Assembly: GCA_903935095.1 (NCBI GenBank)
Contig: CAIZQH010000021.1
Location: forward strand, 186,001-250,000
Source: an uncultured Flavobacteriales bacterium
Lineage (GTDB): Bacteria > Bacteroidota > Bacteroidia > Flavobacteriales_D > Crocinitomicaceae
DNA length: 64,000 nucleotides
Reading direction: 5' to 3'
A program made the translations under genes and the position numbers. Numbering within the stretch: position 1 is the first letter of the stretch; each line of letters begins with the position of its first letter. Shown in pieces: positions 47,463-58,523 of the stretch. The notes beneath the pieces were generated by a model. It worked only from the letters and a program-made list of their open reading frames with translations. It searched no databases and was not told where the DNA came from.

Positions 47463-48395
47463 TTATTCCACGCAATACAGTGTATCATAACACGGAGAGA
47501 ATCCGGCCCAGACACCAAGAAGTCCTGGAATGTTTGTTGGTACATTCACCGGTGTCGAAAATGGACTAGAAGCGGAATTAAGTTGTGCGTATTTTTTGTC
47601 GTAGAAGGAATAAACTTTTTGATCCATTTTTGAAAATTTTACGACGACAGAATCACCTAAGCGGAAATAGCGTTTATATGCTTTTAGGTGCGTGGTGTCC
47701 TTGCGCTTTAATGGATTTTCGTAGTAAAATTCGATCGTTTGACCATCAAAGAATTGATCAGAGAAGAACCCGCCAAAGCCTCGTTTGTAAATATCGTCGA
47801 TTGGCGCACCGTTAAAGATATTCAAGCGTTTGACCTCCCATTTATACCCATCAAATTGTTGGGCGGGATCACTCAATTTTGCCCATGAATAACCGTATTG
47901 AGACGTTCCTGGTTCGGATTTCCAGTAAATGGTATCTAACGTCGTCGTAGCTGGCAAGTAGGTTGTTCCTTGGTAGGTTTTACCTTGGTGACTAATATGC
48001 AAGGTATAGGATTGAGTCGCTTCAGCAATTAGGTCGTTTGAACTATATACTTTTATCGGGAGAAGTAAGACTTCGTTCCAATCCAAGCGCAGCATTTCCG
48101 CTACCTTCTTCTGACTGTCAATTGGCAAATCTGGAATGGAATAAAGTGTTAGTGAAAAAGTGTCATTTCCATGAATAACTGAAAGATTCGCATCGTAAAC
48201 AAATCGTGCAATGTATGCTGCCAAATCACTTTGCTCATAAATATTCGCACTTTGTGATAGTAAAACGATGGGATGTCCGCCTGTCTCGATAATTCCATCA
48301 ACTACTAACTGATTTTGGTATCCTGGAATATCAATTTTCACCTCCTTGGTGCAGGAAAACAATGCAATCAATAGGACCATCCACCAGCTTTTCAT
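47463..48395 (-). CDS. DUF4249-type lipoprotein
   Basis: The 310-residue protein has a lipoprotein signal with lipobox LFSC and the DUF4249 opening, CTKEVKIDIPGYQNQLVVDGIIETGGHPIVLL, in which a short strand is followed by a VVxG motif. DUF4249 proteins commonly accompany TonB-dependent receptors in Bacteroidota and are thought to be surface or periplasmic lipoproteins. Here it is the last gene of the six-gene nucleic-acid operon, 17 nt after the metallophosphatase and four genes away from the receptor. Confidence 0.85.
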   Translation of the reverse strand: MKSWWMVLLIALFSCTKEVKIDIPGYQNQLVVDGIIETGGHPIVLLSQSANIYEQSDLAAYIARFVYDANLSVIHGNDTFSLTLYSIPDLPIDSQKKVAEMLRLDWNEVLLLPIKVYSSNDLIAEATQSYTLHISHQGKTYQGTTYLPATTTLDTIYWKSEPGTSQYGYSWAKLSDPAQQFDGYKWEVKRLNIFNGAPIDDIYKRGFGGFFSDQFFDGQTIEFYYENPLKRKDTTHLKAYKRYFRLGDSVVVKFSKMDQKVYSFYDKKYAQLNSASSPFSTPVNVPTNIPGLLGVWAGFSPCYDTLYCVE

Positions 48396-48412
48396 GAAGT
48401 GAAGTTAGGGAA

Positions 48413-49315
48413 TTATTCAATGGCATGTTTCCAACAAGCAACTTTACTCGCACTGACCTCAATTTTGCCCAAAAACAATCCGGCAAATCCAACTTGATGC
48501 ACTAGCGTGTCTTTATCTTGTTTATTTCGGTGTACGGAGGGCGCATCCATGAAAGTATGCGTATGTCCCCCGAGGATGAGGTCGATGTATTCGTTTTCCG
48601 CTGCAAGTCGAACGTCTGAAGGTTTCGTTGCGTCTGGATAACTGTAGCCTAAATGTGAAAGACAAATGATGAAATCACATCCTTTTTCATGCAATTCCTT
48701 GGCTGTGCGATTGGCAGTTTCAATGGGATCTAAATAAACAGTAGCACCGTAATTGTCAGCGGAAACTAGTCCGTCTAGTTGAAGCCCAATGCCAAATACA
48801 CCGATTTTTAATCCTGCCTTGTGAAAGATTTTAGATACTTGTGTTTGATCCTTTAATACGGTATTCGAAAAGTCGTAATTCGCACAAAGAAATGGAAAAT
48901 CCGCAAATTTCTTTGCTTGAAGGAATCCATCGAGTCCAATGTCAAAATCGTGATTCCCCATAGTAGCCGCATCATAATTCATGGCACTCATGAGTTTCAT
49001 TTCTAATTCTCCATGAAATAGGTTGAAGTAAGGTGTTCCTTGGAAAATATCTCCAGAATCCAACAACAGTACATGTTCTTCTTGCGAGCGAATGTCGTCG
49101 ATGAGTTTTGCTCGACGCGCAACACCGCCTTTATTTGGATACTTAGGATGATTGGCTGGAAATGGGTCTATTTGTGAATGGGTGTCATTCGTATGTAAAA
49201 TGACCAATTTCTTTTCTTTGAGTACCTGAAGTTGTTTTGTCCATTGAAAGGAATTCAACAAAAGCATGGAACCAGAGCCCAAAATACTTGCTTTAAGAAA
49301 GGACCTACGTTTCAT
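48413..49315 (-). CDS. 5'-nucleotidase/2',3'-cyclic phosphodiesterase, metallophosphatase half
   Basis: The 300-residue protein is the N-terminal metallophosphatase domain of the UshA-type 5'-nucleotidase family. It has the di-metal motifs ILHTNDTHSQIDP, LLDSGDIFQGTP, MGNHDFDIG, CLSHLGYS and LGGHTHTF. The N-terminus, MKRRSFLKASILGSG, has a twin-arginine pattern (KRRSFLK), suggesting Tat export of the folded, metal-loaded enzyme. The substrate-specificity half is encoded by the neighbouring gene, whose stop abuts this start. Confidence 0.92.
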   Translation of the reverse strand: MKRRSFLKASILGSGSMLLLNSFQWTKQLQVLKEKKLVILHTNDTHSQIDPFPANHPKYPNKGGVARRAKLIDDIRSQEEHVLLLDSGDIFQGTPYFNLFHGELEMKLMSAMNYDAATMGNHDFDIGLDGFLQAKKFADFPFLCANYDFSNTVLKDQTQVSKIFHKAGLKIGVFGIGLQLDGLVSADNYGATVYLDPIETANRTAKELHEKGCDFIICLSHLGYSYPDATKPSDVRLAAENEYIDLILGGHTHTFMDAPSVHRNKQDKDTLVHQVGFAGLFLGKIEVSASKVACWKHAIE

Positions 49316-50011
49316 TTATTGAATGCGTTTTTCGGATGAAACAATCAAATTTTTCTGAGTTTTTGCTTCTTCAATAAACACGTCGCGAAGCAAGGTTTTT
49401 TTATCGAATCGTTCAACGGCATCTTGAAAAAAATCCATGCGGTCTCCACCATTGGCAAGGTAATCTGTGGTAATGACCCAAACAAATTTGGTGTTTTCTG
49501 TTACATTATTTACGATTAACTTCCCCTGAATCATCGTTGCATTGGCAATAGGTTCTCCACCGCTTTGTTGCAAGTAAGATTGAATTTTATCTAACGAGGC
49601 AAGAGGCAAACGTAACCAGACCACGCTATTTTCAAAAGGCATGATGCGGAAAATATCTCCCAATGTCACGGGTCCTTTTCCAATGGAGGAACGGAGTCCG
49701 CCGGTATTTAATAAACAAAAAATGGGTTCAGAAAGTTTAACTGTTCTCGTTTGATTAACAAACAAGGCGTCGCTTGCCCAATTTCCTAAAATGCTGGATG
49801 GTCTTCCAACTTCCATTGACACACTAGATTCGGCAAGAACTTGGTTCATGGTATTTTCCATGGAATCTTTATACGGTGAAATAAATTGACTGACTTCCTG
49901 TTTTTCAGCCGAGTCATAGTTTAGGGAAACCTTGGATGCAGTTGTCGTTAAATGAGAAGAGCAAGCCAAAAGGCTTGCTCCAATCAAAAATAATAGTAAA
50001 TGTCGGAGCAT
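49316..50011 (-). CDS. 5'-nucleotidase C-terminal (substrate-binding) half, lipoprotein
   Basis: The 231-residue protein matches the 5_nucleotid_C domain: GNWASDALF, LLNTGGLRSSIGKGPVTLGDIFRIMPFENSVV and the ligand-stacking TTDYLANGGDRMDFF. It has its own Sec lipoprotein signal with lipobox LLAC, so it is anchored to a membrane. It lies directly after the endonuclease gene (one-base overlap) and directly before the metallophosphatase half. The two must associate to form a full 5'-nucleotidase. Separate signals show this is not a frameshift. Confidence 0.9.
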   Translation of the reverse strand: MLRHLLLFLIGASLLACSSHLTTTASKVSLNYDSAEKQEVSQFISPYKDSMENTMNQVLAESSVSMEVGRPSSILGNWASDALFVNQTRTVKLSEPIFCLLNTGGLRSSIGKGPVTLGDIFRIMPFENSVVWLRLPLASLDKIQSYLQQSGGEPIANATMIQGKLIVNNVTENTKFVWVITTDYLANGGDRMDFFQDAVERFDKKTLLRDVFIEEAKTQKNLIVSSEKRIQ

Positions 50012-52278
50012 TATTCAATAATAAATTCACGTTGAACTTGACCGAATGCCGTTCCAACTTGAAGAATGTACATTCCAGATTTAAACTCGGATGTCCCTAA
50101 TTCTAATACAGGAACTTGAACATTAGAAGAAGATTTAATCACTCTTCCTTGCATATCTGTGATGGTATATTCAACGATTTCCAAACCATTTACTTGTGCA
50201 AATAGTTTGTCTGAAGTAGGTACTGGGAATACAGAGAAGTTCGCTGCTAATTTTTCATCGATTCCGACATTACATGATAGATAGCTCATATTAGCGAAAT
50301 TTACGTGACAAGCAAAATTCACAGAGTCTACATATGGATTTCTGTTTGCTTGCTTGCTGAAAATAAATTCGTTACGAGCAATTTCATAATTATCAGGAAG
50401 GTCATTGTAATGCCATGTTTTCAAAGACTCTTGGCTTTGATTTGGGGGTAATTGCCAGTTATTTCCTGCTTGACCATTGTAACATGTCGCCATATAGAAA
50501 ATGGAACGTGCAGCATTTCCTTTTTGCGCAGCACGTGGTTCATAAACCAACTGATTTGCGCTGTAACCCACGTTTCCTTCTAAGTATGTAAATACTACAT
50601 CACCATCGATGTCCATTAAAGGCAAATTACTTCTTGGTGTATTGGCTTGCTGTAAATTCGTAGGCCAAAGGTTGTGTTGATCATTATATTCTGGTTTTTC
50701 AGATGGTGTATCGGCTGGGAAGGTTGGCATCCAAGAATGACAATATGAGTGCTCACGAGAATATCCTTGTGCTGTCCAGTCAAATGGCTCGTCAAACACT
50801 TTACGTTCACCTGAATACACACATGTCACAAAAGATTGTCCGTTCGTTGTATCGCGGATTTCAAATTGATTCATGACGGTTGTTTTGTAATTGAAGTACG
50901 AAACTACAGTGTGTGGATTAATCAAGGCACTTAAATCACTTAAGAACGTTGTTGAACCTGAACTAATTCCTGAGTAATAGTTTCCAATTTGTTCACCTTG
51001 GCTTGTTATGTTTCCGATTGCTGGACTTGTCGTTTGGTAATTCTCGAATCCAGTTGAACCATTGTATGCAAAAACAGCAAAATGATAGTTTTGATTGGCA
51101 ATGATTCCACGTGGAGTGAATCCTGTTCCACTTCCGATGTACGCAACACGTGCATCACCAACGACATCTCCTCTTTTGTAACTAGTTCCATCAGTAGGTA
51201 TTCCTGTTACGGCAGCACCATTTTTCCAAAGTACGATGTAATTTTCTGCATTTGTTCCAGCTGTGTATTGTCCACCAATGGTGTATGCTTTTACAAGTGG
51301 AAACGTTAAGTTTGTCGGATTCGTAGTTGGCTCAGTTGCCAAATTATTTGTCCCAATTGCGTATAAGTTGATGATGTATGGATTCTCATCACTATCATCG
51401 TTCGCTATGGAAATCGTTGCAGTGCGCGTTCCTGTTCCTGTAGGAGCAAACGATAATGTGTAGGTATTACTTCCAAGTGCAGCAACAGTTCCTGTTGTTA
51501 AATCAATAGAGAATTCTGCAGCGTTTGCACCTGTAAAACTTACACCAGAAAGTGTTAAACTGGAAACTCCTGTATTTTCGATGGTAAGGGATGTAGCTGC
51601 AGTCGTTCCAACCACATAGGTGCCGTTATTCAATACGGTGTTGCCGTTTACTTTTACACTGATTTCTCTTGCAGGAGCAACGTAAGGGAAAATGTCTAAT
51701 AAATTTCTTGGGATGATTTGGTAATTCGCATTGAATTGTCCTAATTCACCAACGATGGAAATAGGTCCAGTTGGAATGGCTGTTCCGTCGATGTTTGTTG
51801 AACCATTCACACGAACATCAAAGGTGCTTGTTCCATTTGAGACTTGAACGGTACTATTTCCTGTGGCAAAGTTTCCTGTTTGCACAAACGTTACATTGTC
51901 GAAGCGTACTAATTGACTTTCTAATACTTCTGTTCCACTTGAAAAAGGAATGGTTTGAGGCTGGGGTAAGACACCAGGACCATGGTTAACAACGCTAGTA
52001 GTTGGAGACAATTCCAATAAACCACTGAACTCGAGTAATACGCCTGTGGCTGTAATGGAATCTCCTCTTTGAACAGAAGAAACAATATTGCCATAACAAG
52101 CGATACCAGCGGTACCATCTTGGATGTAACGAATGTTTCCAAGTTCACTGCCATTGGTAGCAACACCTGTAACGGTTACGGTTTGTCCTATTCCCAAATT
52201 TCTTGCTTCAGAAATGGTTTGAGCTTTCGCGCTTAAGATAGCGAAGAAGGCAAGTGCACTAAGTATTCCTTTTTTCAT
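50011..52278 (-). CDS. secreted endonuclease I with T9SS sorting domain
   Basis: The 755-residue protein is multidomain: signal peptide (ending AKAQ), an OB-like domain at about 20-195 (GIGQTVTVTGVATNG, YIQDGTAGIACYG), a choice-of-anchor-D type domain (ISVKVNGNTVLNNGTY) at about 205-310, a fibronectin-III-like stretch to about 430, and an endonuclease I domain at about 435-670. Its active-site motifs are SREHSYCHSWMP and YNDQHNLWPTNL. A T9SS type A sorting domain follows (FSVFPVPTSDKLF, ending in a VQREFIIE strand). It probably degrades extracellular DNA or RNA at the cell surface. Confidence 0.9.
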   Translation of the reverse strand: MKKGILSALAFFAILSAKAQTISEARNLGIGQTVTVTGVATNGSELGNIRYIQDGTAGIACYGNIVSSVQRGDSITATGVLLEFSGLLELSPTTSVVNHGPGVLPQPQTIPFSSGTEVLESQLVRFDNVTFVQTGNFATGNSTVQVSNGTSTFDVRVNGSTNIDGTAIPTGPISIVGELGQFNANYQIIPRNLLDIFPYVAPAREISVKVNGNTVLNNGTYVVGTTAATSLTIENTGVSSLTLSGVSFTGANAAEFSIDLTTGTVAALGSNTYTLSFAPTGTGTRTATISIANDDSDENPYIINLYAIGTNNLATEPTTNPTNLTFPLVKAYTIGGQYTAGTNAENYIVLWKNGAAVTGIPTDGTSYKRGDVVGDARVAYIGSGTGFTPRGIIANQNYHFAVFAYNGSTGFENYQTTSPAIGNITSQGEQIGNYYSGISSGSTTFLSDLSALINPHTVVSYFNYKTTVMNQFEIRDTTNGQSFVTCVYSGERKVFDEPFDWTAQGYSREHSYCHSWMPTFPADTPSEKPEYNDQHNLWPTNLQQANTPRSNLPLMDIDGDVVFTYLEGNVGYSANQLVYEPRAAQKGNAARSIFYMATCYNGQAGNNWQLPPNQSQESLKTWHYNDLPDNYEIARNEFIFSKQANRNPYVDSVNFACHVNFANMSYLSCNVGIDEKLAANFSVFPVPTSDKLFAQVNGLEIVEYTITDMQGRVIKSSSNVQVPVLELGTSEFKSGMYILQVGTAFGQVQREFIIE

Positions 52279-52280
52279 AA

Positions 52281-55028
52281 TTAAAATTGAATTGCGAGTG
52301 AAAAATTAAAGCGAAATCCACCACCAAACATCACGCTTGCAGATTGAGCATCGAAATTTTGGTATGGGTCATTTCGGTTATTAGTAGCATCTGAAATAAA
52401 AATGGTGTTTAATGCGTTTGTAATTGTTGCGGTTGTTAATAAAGAGAATGTTTTGAATGGGAATTTATATCCTGCAAAAACATTCAGTAAGGTATATGAT
52501 GGCATTATCCAAGAATCTCTTCCCCCATCATCACCTTTGAGGGTAAATGGATCAAAATTGGCATAATAGCGATCAAAATATTGAAGTTGCAACTTAATGT
52601 ATCCATTTTTAATGGGTTCATAGCGCAAAGAGGCGGCCATTGCTGTTTGTGCTGCGTCCCCAACATGTACACCTTTTGCATCAAATGTGAACTCCAATGA
52701 ATCGTATTGTGGGATAATCACTGTTTTGGAAGAATTCCAATACCATTGTCCAACAGATACCATGATGTCCCCTGAAAGTTTCTTGGAAAACTTAAATGCT
52801 GCATCAAATTCACCACCGAGGTGAACAGCATCGAGTCCATTGATGTTCACGCGGATTGACTCGGTTGGGTCATTTGGATCTGGAACAGGAACGCCATATG
52901 GGAAAGGTTTATTTTTCCAATTTGTCGCATAAGCATTGATATTGAATCCAAATTTCTCTTTGGCATAATTATAACCACCTTCCGCAGAAAGGATCTTTTC
53001 ATTCACGATTTCACCGAAGAAACTATTGGAATTGTTATCAATGACATTCGAAAATTGTGGAGTACGATTTAGGAATCCAACATTAACATAAGCTGTTGCA
53101 TTTTTTTGAACTTGGTAGCTCAATCCAGATTTAAATGTAAAACCAGGAAGGAATTTCCAGTCTGTTGCGTAATACTTTAGTTCTTTGTTGCTTGCATCAT
53201 ACGTTACGCCGTTGTAGGTAATGGTATCCAGAGCACCAATTCTCAAAATCGTATCACCTAAATCGAGAACTCGTTTTTGGAAACGATCAACTCCTTTATA
53301 GCCGTTCAATATCCCAGAAACATTGACAAAATAGGACAATTTTTTTCCGGTATATTCCATTTGTCCAAAAGCACCTGACCACTGTACAATTCCATCGCGA
53401 TCTGCGTTAAATGCATTTTTGGCAATTTTATCACCAACGCGTTGCATCGGATCTGCATCATTGTTATCTGCGTTACTTACAAAATAGTCACCACCTAATA
53501 AATTAGTAATTACTTGGTAGTGTGAGCCTTGATAATAACGAAAATCAATACCTCCAGAAAACTCTAATTTTTTAGAGTAGGTAAAATTAAATTGACTTAA
53601 GTATCCGGCCCAGAAGTGGTTGTTGATACTTGCCATCAAGATTTGACTCGATTTTATTTCGGTTGGATGGTAGTTTTGATCGGTATTAGGTGTTCCAAAT
53701 AATGAATTCACTTGATTTTCTTTGATGACCAAGTCCCAATTAATCAATCCAGAAGAATCTCTTAGCAAGGCACTAGAATTAAAAATACTTGTTCCACCAC
53801 CACGACCAATAGAAACGTAGGCAATGTTAGAAATGGATAATTTGTCATTTACTGTCCAAAAGTCTTTTAAGGTAAACTGAGGTTTAGAATAGAAGTTAAG
53901 TCTTTCGTTTAGGATTTGTTTTTTTCCGTTACTTGTTGTTTGATATCCCCAATGTTGGTTGAATCGAATGCCCATATTCGAGAAAATCATATTTGTATCG
54001 ATTGGTGCGCCTAGATCTCTTGCTGTACTTTCATCGAAGTATTGAATGGCTTGAGTAAAAGAACGCTGACCATGTTCTTGAGGTGCTGCAAATGCCGAAA
54101 ATGTCATTAAATGTTTGTCCACTTTCTTCGAAACTTTTAGGTACCCAAATTTTCCTTGACTTGGGGTTCCGTATACCCAGCCATCCGCTTGTTTATAGGA
54201 TGCAGAAAATGTTAATCCCCATCCGGATTTCGTCATTCCTGTATTATAGGATAGGGTAGAGCGCAATAAGTTTCCTGTTCCGTATTCTTGGCGAAATGAC
54301 CCACCGGGTTTGTTAGAAACTCCTTGGGTAATAATGTTTATTGTTCCTCCAATAGATGGCATGGCAATTTTTGTAGCTCCGAGTCCACGTTGAACTTGCA
54401 TTTGAGAGGTAATGGCATCTAGTCCAAACCAATTGGACCAATAAACCGCACCATTTTCCATGTCATTAACAGGAACACCATCGATCATCACTCCAACGTT
54501 ACGCTGATCGAATCCACGCACATTAATTCGCGCATCCCCATCACCACCACCTTGCTGCGTAGCATAGACTCCAGGAGTTCCATTCAGCAACATCGGTAAG
54601 TCGCGAGAACCTAATTCTTCGGTAATTTTCTGTAAGGGAATTTTTGTTACTGCTACAGGAACATTTTGAGAACCTGCTAAATTTCCAATGACTTTGATTT
54701 CGCGGTATTCTTGACTAGCTCCAATGAAAAAATTGACCGTCATTAAAGGTTTAGAAACTTGAATTTCTTGAACCATTGAGTCAAATCCCATCATTTTAAA
54801 GGTAATGGAATAATCTCCGTACGTCACATCAGTCATTTCGTAAATCCCTTGTGAGTTGGACATGGCTCTTTTCATCACCACACCTTTATTGTTGTAAAGG
54901 GTGATTTTTGCTCCACTTAATAGTTGGTTCGTCGCATTTTCACTGACTTCACCAGTGATTTTGCCACTAGTTTGACCGAAACTCAGTTCAGCACAAAAAA
55001 CGAGAAATAAAAATAAAAGGGATTTCAT
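52281..55028 (-). CDS. TonB-dependent receptor with carboxypeptidase-like N-terminal domain
   Basis: The 915-residue outer-membrane protein has a signal peptide ending near LSFGQ, a carboxypeptidase-regulatory-like domain at residues about 20-105 (GEVSENATNQLLSGAKITL), a plug (LLNGTPGVYATQQGGG, RGFDQRNVGVMIDGVPVND), and a 22-strand-type barrel ending GGGFRFNFSLAIQF. It lies between the T9SS lamin-tail protein and the T9SS endonuclease, 2 nt from the latter. Import of nucleic-acid breakdown products is inferred from this context only; the ligand is not evident from the sequence. Confidence 0.92.
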   Translation of the reverse strand: MKSLLFLFLVFCAELSFGQTSGKITGEVSENATNQLLSGAKITLYNNKGVVMKRAMSNSQGIYEMTDVTYGDYSITFKMMGFDSMVQEIQVSKPLMTVNFFIGASQEYREIKVIGNLAGSQNVPVAVTKIPLQKITEELGSRDLPMLLNGTPGVYATQQGGGDGDARINVRGFDQRNVGVMIDGVPVNDMENGAVYWSNWFGLDAITSQMQVQRGLGATKIAMPSIGGTINIITQGVSNKPGGSFRQEYGTGNLLRSTLSYNTGMTKSGWGLTFSASYKQADGWVYGTPSQGKFGYLKVSKKVDKHLMTFSAFAAPQEHGQRSFTQAIQYFDESTARDLGAPIDTNMIFSNMGIRFNQHWGYQTTSNGKKQILNERLNFYSKPQFTLKDFWTVNDKLSISNIAYVSIGRGGGTSIFNSSALLRDSSGLINWDLVIKENQVNSLFGTPNTDQNYHPTEIKSSQILMASINNHFWAGYLSQFNFTYSKKLEFSGGIDFRYYQGSHYQVITNLLGGDYFVSNADNNDADPMQRVGDKIAKNAFNADRDGIVQWSGAFGQMEYTGKKLSYFVNVSGILNGYKGVDRFQKRVLDLGDTILRIGALDTITYNGVTYDASNKELKYYATDWKFLPGFTFKSGLSYQVQKNATAYVNVGFLNRTPQFSNVIDNNSNSFFGEIVNEKILSAEGGYNYAKEKFGFNINAYATNWKNKPFPYGVPVPDPNDPTESIRVNINGLDAVHLGGEFDAAFKFSKKLSGDIMVSVGQWYWNSSKTVIIPQYDSLEFTFDAKGVHVGDAAQTAMAASLRYEPIKNGYIKLQLQYFDRYYANFDPFTLKGDDGGRDSWIMPSYTLLNVFAGYKFPFKTFSLLTTATITNALNTIFISDATNNRNDPYQNFDAQSASVMFGGGFRFNFSLAIQF

Positions 55029-55059
55029 TTGCCTTAAGTTGATAGTGAATCCTACCCGC

Positions 55060-56118
55060 TTATCTCAAAATAATTTTGCGAATGATCTGTTGACCACTTA
55101 CGTCAGTCAATCGGATCACATATACACCGGTAAAATCACTTAAATCTAAAGAAATCAAGGTTTTACTCGTGGAAATTGATTGTGTAAAAACTTGTTGACC
55201 TAATGAATTTAAGACCTGCACTTTACGGATATTTCCTTTGTTGCGAATATTTACTAATCCAGAACTCGGATTCGGGAACACACTTAAAGCGATTTCTTCT
55301 TGTTCAGAAACTGCCGCAGGATTACATGCACAATCATGCACACCTAATGATCCCCAATTCCCATCTAAAATAGGATTGCCACTTGTACCAAATAAAGTAT
55401 CTCCATTTGCATCTAAGCGAACAATAACAGGTGGAATCGTGTCAAACTCTAACATCGGGTTAAAGAATGACTGATTAGTAATAACACCTTTTTTAATTGT
55501 TGACTTGCGAATCATCGAGTGATCTTTTGTTACTAAGACACCTATTCCAGTACTGTATGGGAATCCGGTAGACCATGCTCCGTCATTTCCTATGGTGGAT
55601 CCAGTTTCATTCGCAGGATTTTGTCCGATTAACCCAAAAATATCTACAATGGCAAAACCAGTTACATTCGCTGCATTTATTAGGGTAGTTGCGTTTGAAG
55701 GCAAAGTACCTTTAGCCAACATTACAGCATCGTTCCCATTCCAATAAAATGAGTTTGAAGTGTTATAAATTGGACAATAAAATCCATCTGCTCGTGCTTG
55801 CAAAGAATCCCAAATAGGAGCTTCTTGTCCCGTTCCATTTGGATCTTGTTTGTCAAGAACAGCCACATATACGTCGTGTGCGGCGATGGTTCCTGACAAT
55901 TGAATTGAATTTGCAACAGTTGCCGTAGTTGAACCATTTGAATAACGAGAAACAAAGTAACCACTCAGGTTGATCGGATTAGAAGTTGGATTGTAAATCT
56001 CTAAGGCTTTGTTGTTTGACCATCCTTCTACATATTCAGAAATGAATAATTCAGAACAATCTTGAGCAGTTGCATTCAGTGTCAAAACACTAACGATAAA
56101 CAGTAAAATTTTTTTCAT
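55060..56118 (-). CDS. lamin-tail-domain protein with T9SS sorting domain
   Basis: The 352-residue protein has a signal peptide ending NATAQ, then a lamin-tail domain: DCSELFISEYVEGWSNNKALEIYNPTSNPINLSGYFV, the characteristic E-N-K-xLE-IYN pattern. A T9SS type A sorting domain ends it (SVFPNPSSGLVNI, SGQQIIRKIILR). Lamin-tail domains in bacteria are often joined to extracellular nucleases, so a DNA-binding or adhesion role fits the operon. First gene of the six-gene unit, 31 nt upstream of the receptor. Confidence 0.9.
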   Translation of the reverse strand: MKKILLFIVSVLTLNATAQDCSELFISEYVEGWSNNKALEIYNPTSNPINLSGYFVSRYSNGSTTATVANSIQLSGTIAAHDVYVAVLDKQDPNGTGQEAPIWDSLQARADGFYCPIYNTSNSFYWNGNDAVMLAKGTLPSNATTLINAANVTGFAIVDIFGLIGQNPANETGSTIGNDGAWSTGFPYSTGIGVLVTKDHSMIRKSTIKKGVITNQSFFNPMLEFDTIPPVIVRLDANGDTLFGTSGNPILDGNWGSLGVHDCACNPAAVSEQEEIALSVFPNPSSGLVNIRNKGNIRKVQVLNSLGQQVFTQSISTSKTLISLDLSDFTGVYVIRLTDVSGQQIIRKIILR

Positions 56119-56183
56119 AATCCCAAAAAAACAAGCTACATGACTCTTTTAGTTTTACGTTAAGTCACGAAGTCATTATTCTT

Positions 56184-56193
56184 ACCACGTGGT
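56184..56193. promoter_or_regulatory. perfect palindrome in the leader of the nucleic-acid operon
   Basis: ACCACGTGGT is a ten-base perfect palindrome lying between the candidate -7 element (56236-56243) and the first gene. Nearby, at 56162-56175, AAGTCA occurs twice as a direct repeat separated by CG. Either could be an operator; evidence is symmetry and position only. Confidence 0.35.
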
Positions 56194-56235
56194 TTCAGCA
56201 TAGTTGCTTCAAGGAGGACGCGTGTTAAGTTGCAA

Positions 56236-56243
56236 CAAATTTA
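56236..56243 (-). promoter_or_regulatory. candidate -7 element of the nucleic-acid operon
   Basis: TAAATTTG on the minus strand is a perfect TAnnTTTG. A TTTG lies 16 nt upstream, shorter than the usual 19-20. The implied leader is about 110 nt, longer than at the other genes here, and contains the palindrome at 56184. Confidence 0.4.
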
Positions 56244-56314
56244 GGTGTTTTTTTGAAAACAAATAAAATTTAAGGTTAAACTTTCATGAATTCATTGTTA
56301 GCTAAGCTCATCAG

Positions 56315-56345
56315 TTGCATTATCCGAGTACAATACCTAAATTCG
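56315..56345 (+). promoter_or_regulatory. candidate promoter of the DPP IV-type peptidase
   Basis: TTG at 56315-56317, then 20 nt, then TAAATTCG at 56338-56345 (one mismatch to TAnnTTTG). The box ends 18 nt before the ATG at 56364. Confidence 0.4.
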
Positions 56346-56363
56346 GGCTTCAAATATTTGAAT

Positions 56364-58523
56364 ATGAAAAATAGTCTTCTCTTTGTTTTTACTTTAGTTT
56401 ACTCCCTTGTTTTCGCCCAAGACCTTACCGTTGAGCGTATTTGGAAAAATTATGAATTTAGTCCAAAGCGTATAAATGGTTTCAAATCCATGAACGATGG
56501 TGAACATTACACCAATGTAAAAGACGGAAATTCCATTTACAAATTCAGTTTGAATGATGTGAATGACAAAGGAGTAGCAGTTCTTGATGGTTCGAAACTT
56601 TTAGTGGATGGAAAAAAACTGGAATTTGATGATTATGAGTTTAATTCGGATGAGACAAAAATCCTTTTATTGACAAATGTTGAGTCCATTTACCGACGCA
56701 GTTTTCAAGCCGTTTATTATCTATTTAATTTGGAAACACAAAAATTAACTCCCCTAGATTCTGAACATACTCCACAAACCTTGGCTGAATATTCTCCGGA
56801 CGGAACAAAAGTTTCCTACATTCATGGTAATGATCTTTTTGTGAAAACGATTGCGAATGGAAAAGTAGAGAAGTTAACTCAGGATGGCAAACGTAATAAA
56901 GTGATTAATGGAACAACGGATTGGGTATATGAGGAAGAGTTTTCAATTACCAAAGCATATGGTTGGTCGCCTGACAGTAAATACATTGCTTACCTGCGTT
57001 TTGATGAAAAAGCTGTTCCAGAATATAGCATGGATACGTATGGTGGTTTGTATCCAGAAGCATATACTTTTAAATACCCAAAAGCAGGGGAAGTGAATAG
57101 TGTGGTAACCGCACATTGTATTTCGGTGGACAGTAAAAAAGTACAACAGATTGATTTGGGATCTTATGAGTACATCCCCAGATTGAATTGGTCTTCTGCC
57201 TCCAATCAATTGATTGTTCAAACCATGAATCGTCACCAAAGTGAATTAAACTATTGGTTAGTGGATGTCGTGAAAGGTAAAGTTTCGGGCAAAATCTTCT
57301 TTACCGAGAAATCAACAACTTATATTGACATCGATGACAATTTATTGATATTGAAAGATGGGAAATCCATTCTTCGTACAAGTGAAGAAAGTGGATACCG
57401 TCATATTTATCAATTGAATTTTGATGGAAGTGTGAAACAAATCACAAGTGGACCTTGGGATGTGATTGATTTTCTTGGGTTTGATGAAACGTCCAAGCAA
57501 ATTTATTTTAGTTCTGCTGAAAAAGGAGCCATTCATAAATCCATTTACTCAGTGGAAACAAGTGGTGCCAATAAACGTGATTTAACAGCGCCTATTGGAT
57601 ACAATGAAGCGGAATTCCTAAATGGGATGCATTATTTTATTCATACCTATTCCAATGCCAATCAAGCTCCTGTTTATCAGCTTTGTAAAAGTGACGGATC
57701 AGTTGTTCGAGTAATGGAGTCCAATCAGGCCTTCACGGATAAAATGAAAAAAGAGCGCTTATCGTCCAAACAATTTATCGAAGTAAATGCGAATGGCGTA
57801 AAGTTAAATGCTTCTGTGATATTACCGGTTGGATTCGATCCAGCAAAAAAATATCCGATGTATGTCAACGTGTACGGTGGGCCCGGACATAACGAAGTGT
57901 TAGATGCGTGGGATGGAAATGATTATTTCTTTCATCAATTGTTAGCCCAAAAAGGATACATCATTTTCCAAGTGGATCCGAGAGGAACGATGTATCAAGG
58001 AGTGGAATTCAAGAAAAGCACCTATTTGCAATTGGGAAAATTGGAAATCGAGGACGTGATGAATGCCGTAAAAGAATACGCGAAAAATTCGTTCGTAGAT
58101 GCAAGTCGCGTTGGAATTATGGGTTGGAGTTACGGTGGATTCATGGCATCCTTAGGAATCACGAAAGGCGCGGAGGTATTTAAAATGGCGATTGCGGTTG
58201 CTCCTGTTACAAATTGGAGGTATTATGACAATATATACACGGAGCGTTTCATGCGCACTCCTCAGGAAAACGCAGATGGCTACGACCGAAATTCGCCTAT
58301 TAATTTTGTAGATAACATGAAAGGTAAATATTTGTTAATTCATGGATCAGCGGATGATAATGTTCACTTTCAAAATACCATGGACATGACAAGTGCCTTG
58401 GTCAAAGCGAATAAGCAATTTGATTTATTTGTGTATCCGGATAAAAACCACGGAATATATGGTGGGAATACACGTAATCATTTATTTCAATTAATGTTGA
58501 CGTTTATTGAGTCAAACTTATAA
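56364..58523 (+). CDS. S9 family peptidase, dipeptidyl-peptidase IV type
   Basis: DPP IV-type enzymes remove N-terminal dipeptides, often Xaa-Pro, in the periplasm or at the surface. The ATG at 56364 (MKNSLLFVFTLVYSLVFAQ) gives a clean signal peptide; the track's upstream start does not. The 719-residue protein has an N-terminal eight-bladed propeller with the substrate-amine-binding acidic pair in DWVYEEEFS, and a C-terminal alpha/beta-hydrolase. Catalytic residues are Ser589 (GWSYGG), Asp664 or 665 (SADDNVH) and His696 (KNHGI). It is divergent from the nucleic-acid operon and monocistronic. Confidence 0.92.
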   Translation: MKNSLLFVFTLVYSLVFAQDLTVERIWKNYEFSPKRINGFKSMNDGEHYTNVKDGNSIYKFSLNDVNDKGVAVLDGSKLLVDGKKLEFDDYEFNSDETKILLLTNVESIYRRSFQAVYYLFNLETQKLTPLDSEHTPQTLAEYSPDGTKVSYIHGNDLFVKTIANGKVEKLTQDGKRNKVINGTTDWVYEEEFSITKAYGWSPDSKYIAYLRFDEKAVPEYSMDTYGGLYPEAYTFKYPKAGEVNSVVTAHCISVDSKKVQQIDLGSYEYIPRLNWSSASNQLIVQTMNRHQSELNYWLVDVVKGKVSGKIFFTEKSTTYIDIDDNLLILKDGKSILRTSEESGYRHIYQLNFDGSVKQITSGPWDVIDFLGFDETSKQIYFSSAEKGAIHKSIYSVETSGANKRDLTAPIGYNEAEFLNGMHYFIHTYSNANQAPVYQLCKSDGSVVRVMESNQAFTDKMKKERLSSKQFIEVNANGVKLNASVILPVGFDPAKKYPMYVNVYGGPGHNEVLDAWDGNDYFFHQLLAQKGYIIFQVDPRGTMYQGVEFKKSTYLQLGKLEIEDVMNAVKEYAKNSFVDASRVGIMGWSYGGFMASLGITKGAEVFKMAIAVAPVTNWRYYDNIYTERFMRTPQENADGYDRNSPINFVDNMKGKYLLIHGSADDNVHFQNTMDMTSALVKANKQFDLFVYPDKNHGIYGGNTRNHLFQLMLTFIESNL

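Follow-up and report, generated by a model that had tools for sequence, protein, structure and literature searches.

The window, by which we mean the whole 64,000-nucleotide stretch of DNA analysed here, is part of a 2.48-Mb genome in 29 contigs. We place this genome in or near Crocinitomicaceae, as the named records that match best are MAGs of Crocinitomicaceae or Flavobacteriales, most of them apparently of freshwater origin, as judged partly from isolate names. On its minus strand lie six open reading frames separated by gaps of 31, 2, -1, 0 and 17 nt; these coordinates exactly reproduce those of a first-pass annotation, and Pfam backs the family that it had assigned to each of the six proteins above its cut-off. 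Together with two elements upstream of the first gene, the locus reads as follows in the order of transcription:

56236..56243, minus strand: predicted promoter -7 box (TAAATTTG), at a fixed spacing to the leader RNA
56178..56230, minus strand: structured leader RNA (covariation, covariance-model match)
55060..56118, minus strand: LTD protein, 352 aa, with a signal peptide, a lamin-tail domain (LTD) and a T9SS type A tail (Pfam, structure model)
52281..55028, minus strand: TonB-dependent receptor (TBDT), 915 aa, of the LTD-linked clade (Plug and CarboxypepD_reg, structure model, tree)
50011..52278, minus strand: secreted nuclease, 755 aa, with DUF5689, an Ig-like domain, endonuclease I (EndoI; residues 447-652) and a T9SS tail
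49316..50011, minus strand: C-terminal half of a 5'-nucleotidase, predicted lipoprotein, 231 aa (PF02872, match to 2z1a)
48413..49315, minus strand: metallophosphatase, the catalytic half, 300 aa, with the Tat-type signal MKRRSFLK (PF00149, match to 2z1a)
47463..48395, minus strand: DUF4249 lipoprotein, a genus-level passenger (PF14054, 79 bits)

The first-pass annotation took the six genes for one unit. This holds for the first five, which keep the same order and strand (LTD, receptor, EndoI, C-terminal half, metallophosphatase) in 37 of 40 loci fetched from the family; as for the three exceptions, L061 and L064 are without the nucleotidase pair and L065 breaks off inside the EndoI gene. A culturable relative, Brumimicrobium oceani (L105), is among the carriers of the operon. 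In the fetched loci, the median spacing at the two junctions flanking the gene for the C-terminal half is -1 nt. DUF4249 does not belong: it was found in seven of the ten loci from the window's genus, but the 30 remaining family loci are without it, which rules out one conserved unit of six genes and makes it a genus-level passenger outside the core. The window's genome has a single Endonuclease_1 and a single 5_nucleotid_C, both in this operon. Of the 120 family genomes sampled, 76 have a receptor homologue (E <= 1e-30). By coordinates only, an EndoI gene lies directly downstream of the receptor gene in 67 of 73 receptor genomes of the family, the remaining six being at contig ends, and the C-terminal half is linked to the receptor in 63 of the 73. 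EndoI genes without the receptor, mostly encoding shorter proteins, and split nucleotidase genes without the operon also occur in the family; thus, neither enzyme is exclusive to the operon.

How far does the linkage reach? One genome each of 85,462 species was scanned, and the 80 closest receptor loci were taken, ranked on receptor similarity and not on neighbours. The LTD gene is directly upstream of the receptor gene in all 76 of these loci whose flank is long enough, and gene 3 encodes a secreted nuclease in all 68 testable ones. A transporter tied genetically to a nuclease in this manner and, here, a nucleotidase in the same operon are features of a nucleic-acid utilisation locus. Among 23 distant loci, which include Saprospiraceae and marine Flavobacteriales and have receptors about 41-46% identical, the three genes recur in 23, 23 and 22, whereas any other of the 61 window ORFs recurs in at most one. 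Since the core recurs and the other window ORFs do not, the linkage is not leftover synteny. In a tree of 169 tips, every LTD-linked receptor falls into one clade of 90 (support 0.998). An apparent LTD-receptor fusion in L128 was discarded on account of a signal peptide inside the junction, so the stop was probably lost in assembly. Judged from gene neighbourhoods, linkage of LTD, receptor and nuclease is obligate within the subfamily, and the conserved core comprises three genes, for a putative binder, a transporter and a nuclease, that stay together across distant bacteria.

The first-pass annotation had proposed a coherent module for digestion and uptake of nucleic acids and release of phosphate. 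The three-gene core largely supports this idea, but the boundaries shift, with the nucleotidase as a family-level part and DUF4249 as a passenger. The annotation held that the idea would fail if relatives of the receptor were mostly without nuclease and nucleotidase: the nuclease accompanies the receptor throughout the testable loci of the subfamily, and the nucleotidase is mostly linked in the family but was found in none of the distant loci. The co-occurrence of the six families in order that it had suggested looking for extends to five families within the family and to only the three core genes in distant loci. Its observation is therefore confirmed and its interpretation partly supported.

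The nuclease carries Endonuclease_1 (Pfam, 77.7 bits) in addition to DUF5689 and Por_Secre_tail, and matches Vibrio endonuclease I (1oup). Its active site is intact: SREH is present in 39 of 40 orthologues, and DxH[NH]L and N..RSN in all 40. In 14 of the 80 closest loci, as well as in the more distant locus L182, two PLDc_2 domains replace Endonuclease_1. The front of PLD-type gene 3 is still of the DUF5689 type, and most of these proteins end in a T9SS tail that can be recognised. None of the 12 sequences checked has lost either HKD motif, and sequence comparison places the PLD form closest to Nuc (1byr), NucT and proteins of the Zucchini type (mitochondrial cardiolipin hydrolase). Parsimony on the receptor tree calls for at least six exchanges between EndoI and PLD; several of the branches are weakly supported, and therefore "more than once" is safer than an exact count. 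The presence of two unrelated nuclease folds in one slot suggests nucleic acid as the conserved substrate. This swap of folds is the strongest argument offered by the sequences, and it points to nucleic-acid cleavage as the conserved function.

The two nucleotidase genes divide what is elsewhere a single protein. The metallophosphatase half (PF00149, 67.7 bits) matches residues 30-287 of the 5'-nucleotidase 2z1a and the lipoprotein half (PF02872, 50.4 bits) matches residues 321-411; as they tile one enzyme, together they would make up one of the UshA type. Both domains and the catalytic motifs of that type are present, but on two adjacent genes instead of a single polypeptide. All five metal-site motifs are found in 38 of 38 metallophosphatase orthologues and NxGGxR in 35. 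A twin-arginine motif, RRx[FL], lies near the start in 36 of the 38, and TatC is present in the window's genome; signal and translocase together indicate that the catalytic half is probably exported by Tat. The N-terminus of the other half ends in LxAC in all listed orthologues (25 of 38 by a stricter lipobox pattern), consistent with anchoring as a lipoprotein. The nucleotidase, linked in the family and not found in distant loci, is thus a lineage-specific addition. It follows that phosphate release is not the ancestral purpose of the core, or that other enzymes perform it in the distant carriers; for the module as found here, phosphate release is plausible.

The LTD protein matches Pfam LTD (55.8 bits) and Por_Secre_tail (42.4 bits). 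Among the matches of its structure model (pLDDT 87.5) are Ig domains of lamin A/C as well as T9SS tails, one of them from NucA. Por_Secre_tail in both the LTD protein and the nuclease, along with SprA in the genome, is what is expected of T9SS type A substrates, and both proteins are predicted to reside on the cell surface, where the LTD protein may serve as the partner of the receptor. LTD proteins encoded elsewhere in the window's genome mostly carry CotH kinase domains, not nucleases. The receptor has Plug and CarboxypepD_reg by Pfam; a SusC-type or PF00593 barrel was matched in none of the six proteins, nor was the SusD family, which sets the locus apart from SusCD loci. The receptor model (pLDDT 83) is an ordinary TBDT with a single barrel, and the folds closest to it are those of siderophore- and PQQ-type receptors. 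Positive charge on the loops, considered as a sign of nucleic-acid binding, was not seen as a net charge on the long receptor loops, and the models of the LTD protein and receptor point to no substrate. Nucleic-acid fragments are proposed as the imported substrate from the company that the receptor keeps.

More distant receptors of the wider family were sampled across the phylum (80 loci). They have no LTD and mostly no nuclease: an LTD neighbour appears only in L182, with PLD-type gene 3, and EndoI is encoded two genes downstream in three loci. A PF01663 phosphodiesterase/nucleotide pyrophosphatase is nearby in 23 of the 80 and directly downstream in 16, and a polyphosphate kinase is near the receptor in one locus (L240, same genus). 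On these raw counts, phosphoester chemistry would fit as a theme of the wider family.

Outside the coordinates of the first-pass annotation, aligning the regions upstream of LTD first revealed a conserved element, which apparently represents a new structured RNA in the leader of the operon. The 53-nt RNA consists of an 11-bp outer stem, a conserved internal loop (CUCCUUGA / GAAAC), a short inner stem and a variable loop. Ten of 21 genus genomes each contain a single match to a pattern of loop and inner stem, and all matches with known neighbours are upstream of LTD. The outer stem, absent from the search pattern, was found by extending 29 sequences outwards. In these sequences, nine of its 11 pairs show changes on both sides, and covariation is 0.527, compared with 0.167 +/- 0.019 when shuffled and at most 0.174 when slid; with 86 copies it is 0.807 against 0.201, in an alignment fitted to the model. 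The covariance model gives the operon's leader RNA 61.4 bits. It matches in 68 of the 120 family genomes, and five genomes from a second family of the order give weak matches.

The leader RNA precedes the LTD operon in many family genomes, and it is also found elsewhere. The window's genome has one further copy (G000:C13:42639-42700), upstream of a gene for a 627-aa SprB/CHU_C protein. Of the 36 proteins read downstream of non-operon copies, 33 have a T9SS tail (32 CHU_C, one Por_Secre_tail) and 24 have SprB repeats; many start ...QQLIINEVSQGTG.EYVE..., LTD-like by eye, and the LTD model matches only two of the 36. A TAnnTTTG box lies 2-8 nt upstream in 77 of the 86 copies. The Bacteroidota -7 box, of which this is the consensus, is positioned at -12 to -5 (PMC9723704); given this position and the fixed spacing, the RNA would begin at or next to +1, and the start site would be at its base. 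Downstream, the distance to the start codon is mostly 15-21 nt at other genes and 40-160 nt, and variable, at the operon; occlusion of the start codon is therefore not conserved. No model match was found at the operon in genus members L034, L036, L041, L078 and L088, so the RNA is not essential to the module. No Rfam 15 family, Flavo-1 included, matches the leader RNA position at E up to 10, which removes a known riboswitch from consideration. A DNA operator was rejected because the gap between the conserved boxes varies widely and the outer stem covaries, and a small upstream peptide was rejected because reading frames in the leader are not conserved by eye.

The RNA may control expression, but in what capacity? 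The chances seem to us evenly divided on whether it is, instead of a riboswitch, a 5'-terminal stabiliser or protein-binding hairpin of highly expressed surface-protein mRNAs. Its beginning at the predicted +1, the diversity of T9SS cargo genes downstream (33 of 36) and the different spacings to the start codon, which leave occlusion without conservation, all accord with such a hairpin, whereas stability alone would not require so specific a sequence as the invariant internal loop that separates the two stems.

Taken together, the protein families, catalytic motifs, export signals, core linkage, nuclease swap, split enzyme and leader RNA lead us to regard the locus as probably a PUL-like locus for scavenging nucleic acids, a reading drawn from sequence. 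An outline of the process, in which the order of the steps is our proposal, would be as follows: T9SS would place the LTD protein and the DUF5689-endonuclease I on the cell surface, where the nuclease would cut DNA or RNA. The LTD protein would bind or present the substrate for the receptor, in analogy to SusD, and the TonB-dependent receptor would bring short fragments into the periplasm. There the split 5'-nucleotidase would strip phosphate to yield nucleosides and Pi. A stronger version, which we judge somewhat less likely than not, makes the triad a dedicated TonB importer of nucleic-acid fragments with a SusD-like LTD protein, and the operon a member of a set of surface genes led by a new class of signal-sensing 5' RNA. 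Several observations count against the scavenging reading: the receptor is ordinary in fold and lacks net positive charge on its loops, the nucleotidase is missing from the distant carriers of the core, most other LTD proteins of the genome have CotH kinase domains, and the leader RNA also precedes SprB/CHU_C genes that have no obvious role with nucleic acids.

The receptor might import something else, such as a metal complex or another phosphoester, and share the operon for co-regulation, while nuclease and nucleotidase still feed on nucleic acids. Its resemblance to siderophore- and PQQ-type receptors, its loops and the want of a SusD partner would suit this; within the clade, however, it never occurs without LTD and nuclease, and the receptor is retained where one nuclease fold has replaced the other; we judge such a ligand rather unlikely. 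Clearance of biofilm or extracellular DNA, or defence against DNA traps, is a task of secreted nucleases elsewhere, as with ExeM and biofilm formation (PMC6085458), but as the purpose of the module in place of nutrition it appears improbable, for it leaves unexplained both the obligate outer-membrane receptor and the nucleotidase in the same operon in the family. DNA uptake for natural transformation could also make use of the parts combined here: a nuclease at the surface, a channel in the outer membrane and a surface protein that may bind DNA. A TBDT pore, however, passes small ligands or short oligomers and not long DNA, the product would be consumed by the periplasmic 5'-nucleotidase, and the operon contains no competence gene, all of which makes transformation very improbable. 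That the gene order reflects descent alone with no functional link is hardly credible: a divergent peptidase gene and a citrate synthase gene do adjoin the operon in 25 and 24 of 29 non-genus family loci, but the distant loci lose these neighbours and keep the three core genes, which excludes pure synteny, and the nuclease fold has been exchanged in place.

Parts of the scavenging scheme have precedents, though not proof for this operon, in Flavobacterium johnsoniae. When phosphate is depleted, this species induces EndA1 and EndA2, proteins that contain both LTD and EndoI (PMC8115612), and EndA2 (Fjoh_4723) is NucA, which was trapped in the T9SS translocon as a substrate (PMC10994853). TBDT-centred organic-phosphorus loci (PUS) and the combination of LTD and EndoI in a T9SS-secreted protein are shared (PMC8115612, PMC10994853). 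In F. johnsoniae, however, EndA1 and EndA2 are listed as orphans without a TBDT, with LTD fused to the nuclease (PMC8115612), and PUS have PusCD pairs or other lipoproteins, whereas here a separate LTD gene accompanies the TBDT without SusD. Putative loci for DNA degradation, described in Ca. Izemoplasmatales (Wasmund et al., 2021, PMC8289736), likewise co-locate an LTD-bearing extracellular nuclease, nucleotidases and transport, for nutrition on extracellular DNA; these organisms have no outer membrane, TonB is not mentioned in that paper, and the nuclease has another architecture, in contrast to export by T9SS here. SusCD loci follow a comparable logic, with an enzyme at the surface, import that depends on TonB and an enzyme in the periplasm; the operon differs from them in having neither SusD nor a SusC-type/PF00593 match and in nucleases replacing glycosidases. 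The nucleotidase has both domains and the metal-site and substrate motifs of UshA / 5'-nucleotidase (2z1a, 1ush), but these are encoded in reversed order on two genes, whose products are a lipoprotein and a protein with a twin-arginine signal. Shewanella ExeM and EndA also offer parallels, LTD with an extracellular nuclease and, in EndA, a nuclease needed for DNA as a phosphorus source; unlike the operon, they are single gammaproteobacterial proteins that have neither T9SS nor a receptor in their unit. The LTD of ExeM is largely dispensable for DNA degradation (PMC6085458), which counts against the scavenging reading. The leader RNA, finally, is a small structured element like Flavo-1 RNA and other flavobacterial structured 5' regions (PMC9723704), but is not matched by the Flavo-1 family.

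Much of the turnover of extracellular DNA, a large pool of phosphorus, nitrogen and carbon, is attributed to Bacteroidota (PMC8289736). In our literature search we found no paper on the outer-membrane import step for extracellular DNA, and, for Bacteroidota, nothing on oligonucleotides being taken up in a TonB-dependent manner or on a locus for using nucleic acids. The LTD-receptor-nuclease triad with its exchangeable nuclease is a concrete candidate for this step, and its presence in a genome may serve to flag organisms that scavenge nucleic acids. As a candidate regulatory element, the leader RNA would connect the operon with further genes for T9SS cargo; should it prove to sense a ligand, it would define a new class of riboswitch.

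The third gene of the operon, encoding endonuclease I, varies in its N-terminal part. In nine loci of the family (L047, L051, L061 and L066-L071), the DUF5689 domain that usually forms the front of the endonuclease I protein is replaced by a different N-terminal part, and thus the front of this gene is exchanged, as is its catalytic domain elsewhere. Several relatives, including L072, L077 and L088, come from metagenome-assembled genomes whose records bear the title Chryseobacterium gleum or Chitinophaga pinensis; their receptors place them with Crocinitomicaceae, and these titles look mislabelled.

Beside the operon lies the following gene:

window 56286-58523, plus strand: S9/DPP-IV-type peptidase gene, divergent from the operon

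Most loci of the family retain this neighbour; the 23 distant loci, whose receptors are about 41-46% identical, do not. Going by its signal peptide, as judged by eye, the peptidase gene probably starts some 75 nt further downstream than listed.

The structured leader RNA at the 5′ end of the operon mRNA is found again in the same genome: a covariance model search revealed a second copy (G000:C13:42639-42700, minus strand; locus L309), immediately 5′ of a gene for a 627-aa secreted protein with an SprB repeat and a CHU_C tail. Weak matches to the leader-RNA model also occur in a second family of the same order (f52), in genomes G433, G443, G484, G504 and G515. Three other lamin-tail domain proteins encoded by the genome of the window (L261, L263 and L266) carry CotH kinase domains, weak in L266, instead of nuclease domains.

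In the wider receptor family, a PF01663 phosphodiesterase/nucleotide pyrophosphatase neighbours the receptor at L183, L190, L193 and 20 more loci of the phylum sample (80 loci of more distant receptors), which suggests phosphoester uptake as a broader theme. A polyphosphate kinase gene adjoins a paralogous receptor in a genome of the same genus as the window (L240; G022:C8:40000-59000). At L195, L242 and L252, another receptor is followed by a gene for a secreted protein or lipoprotein of 350-550 aa and then by endonuclease I, an arrangement that is perhaps an independent version of the receptor-nuclease idea.
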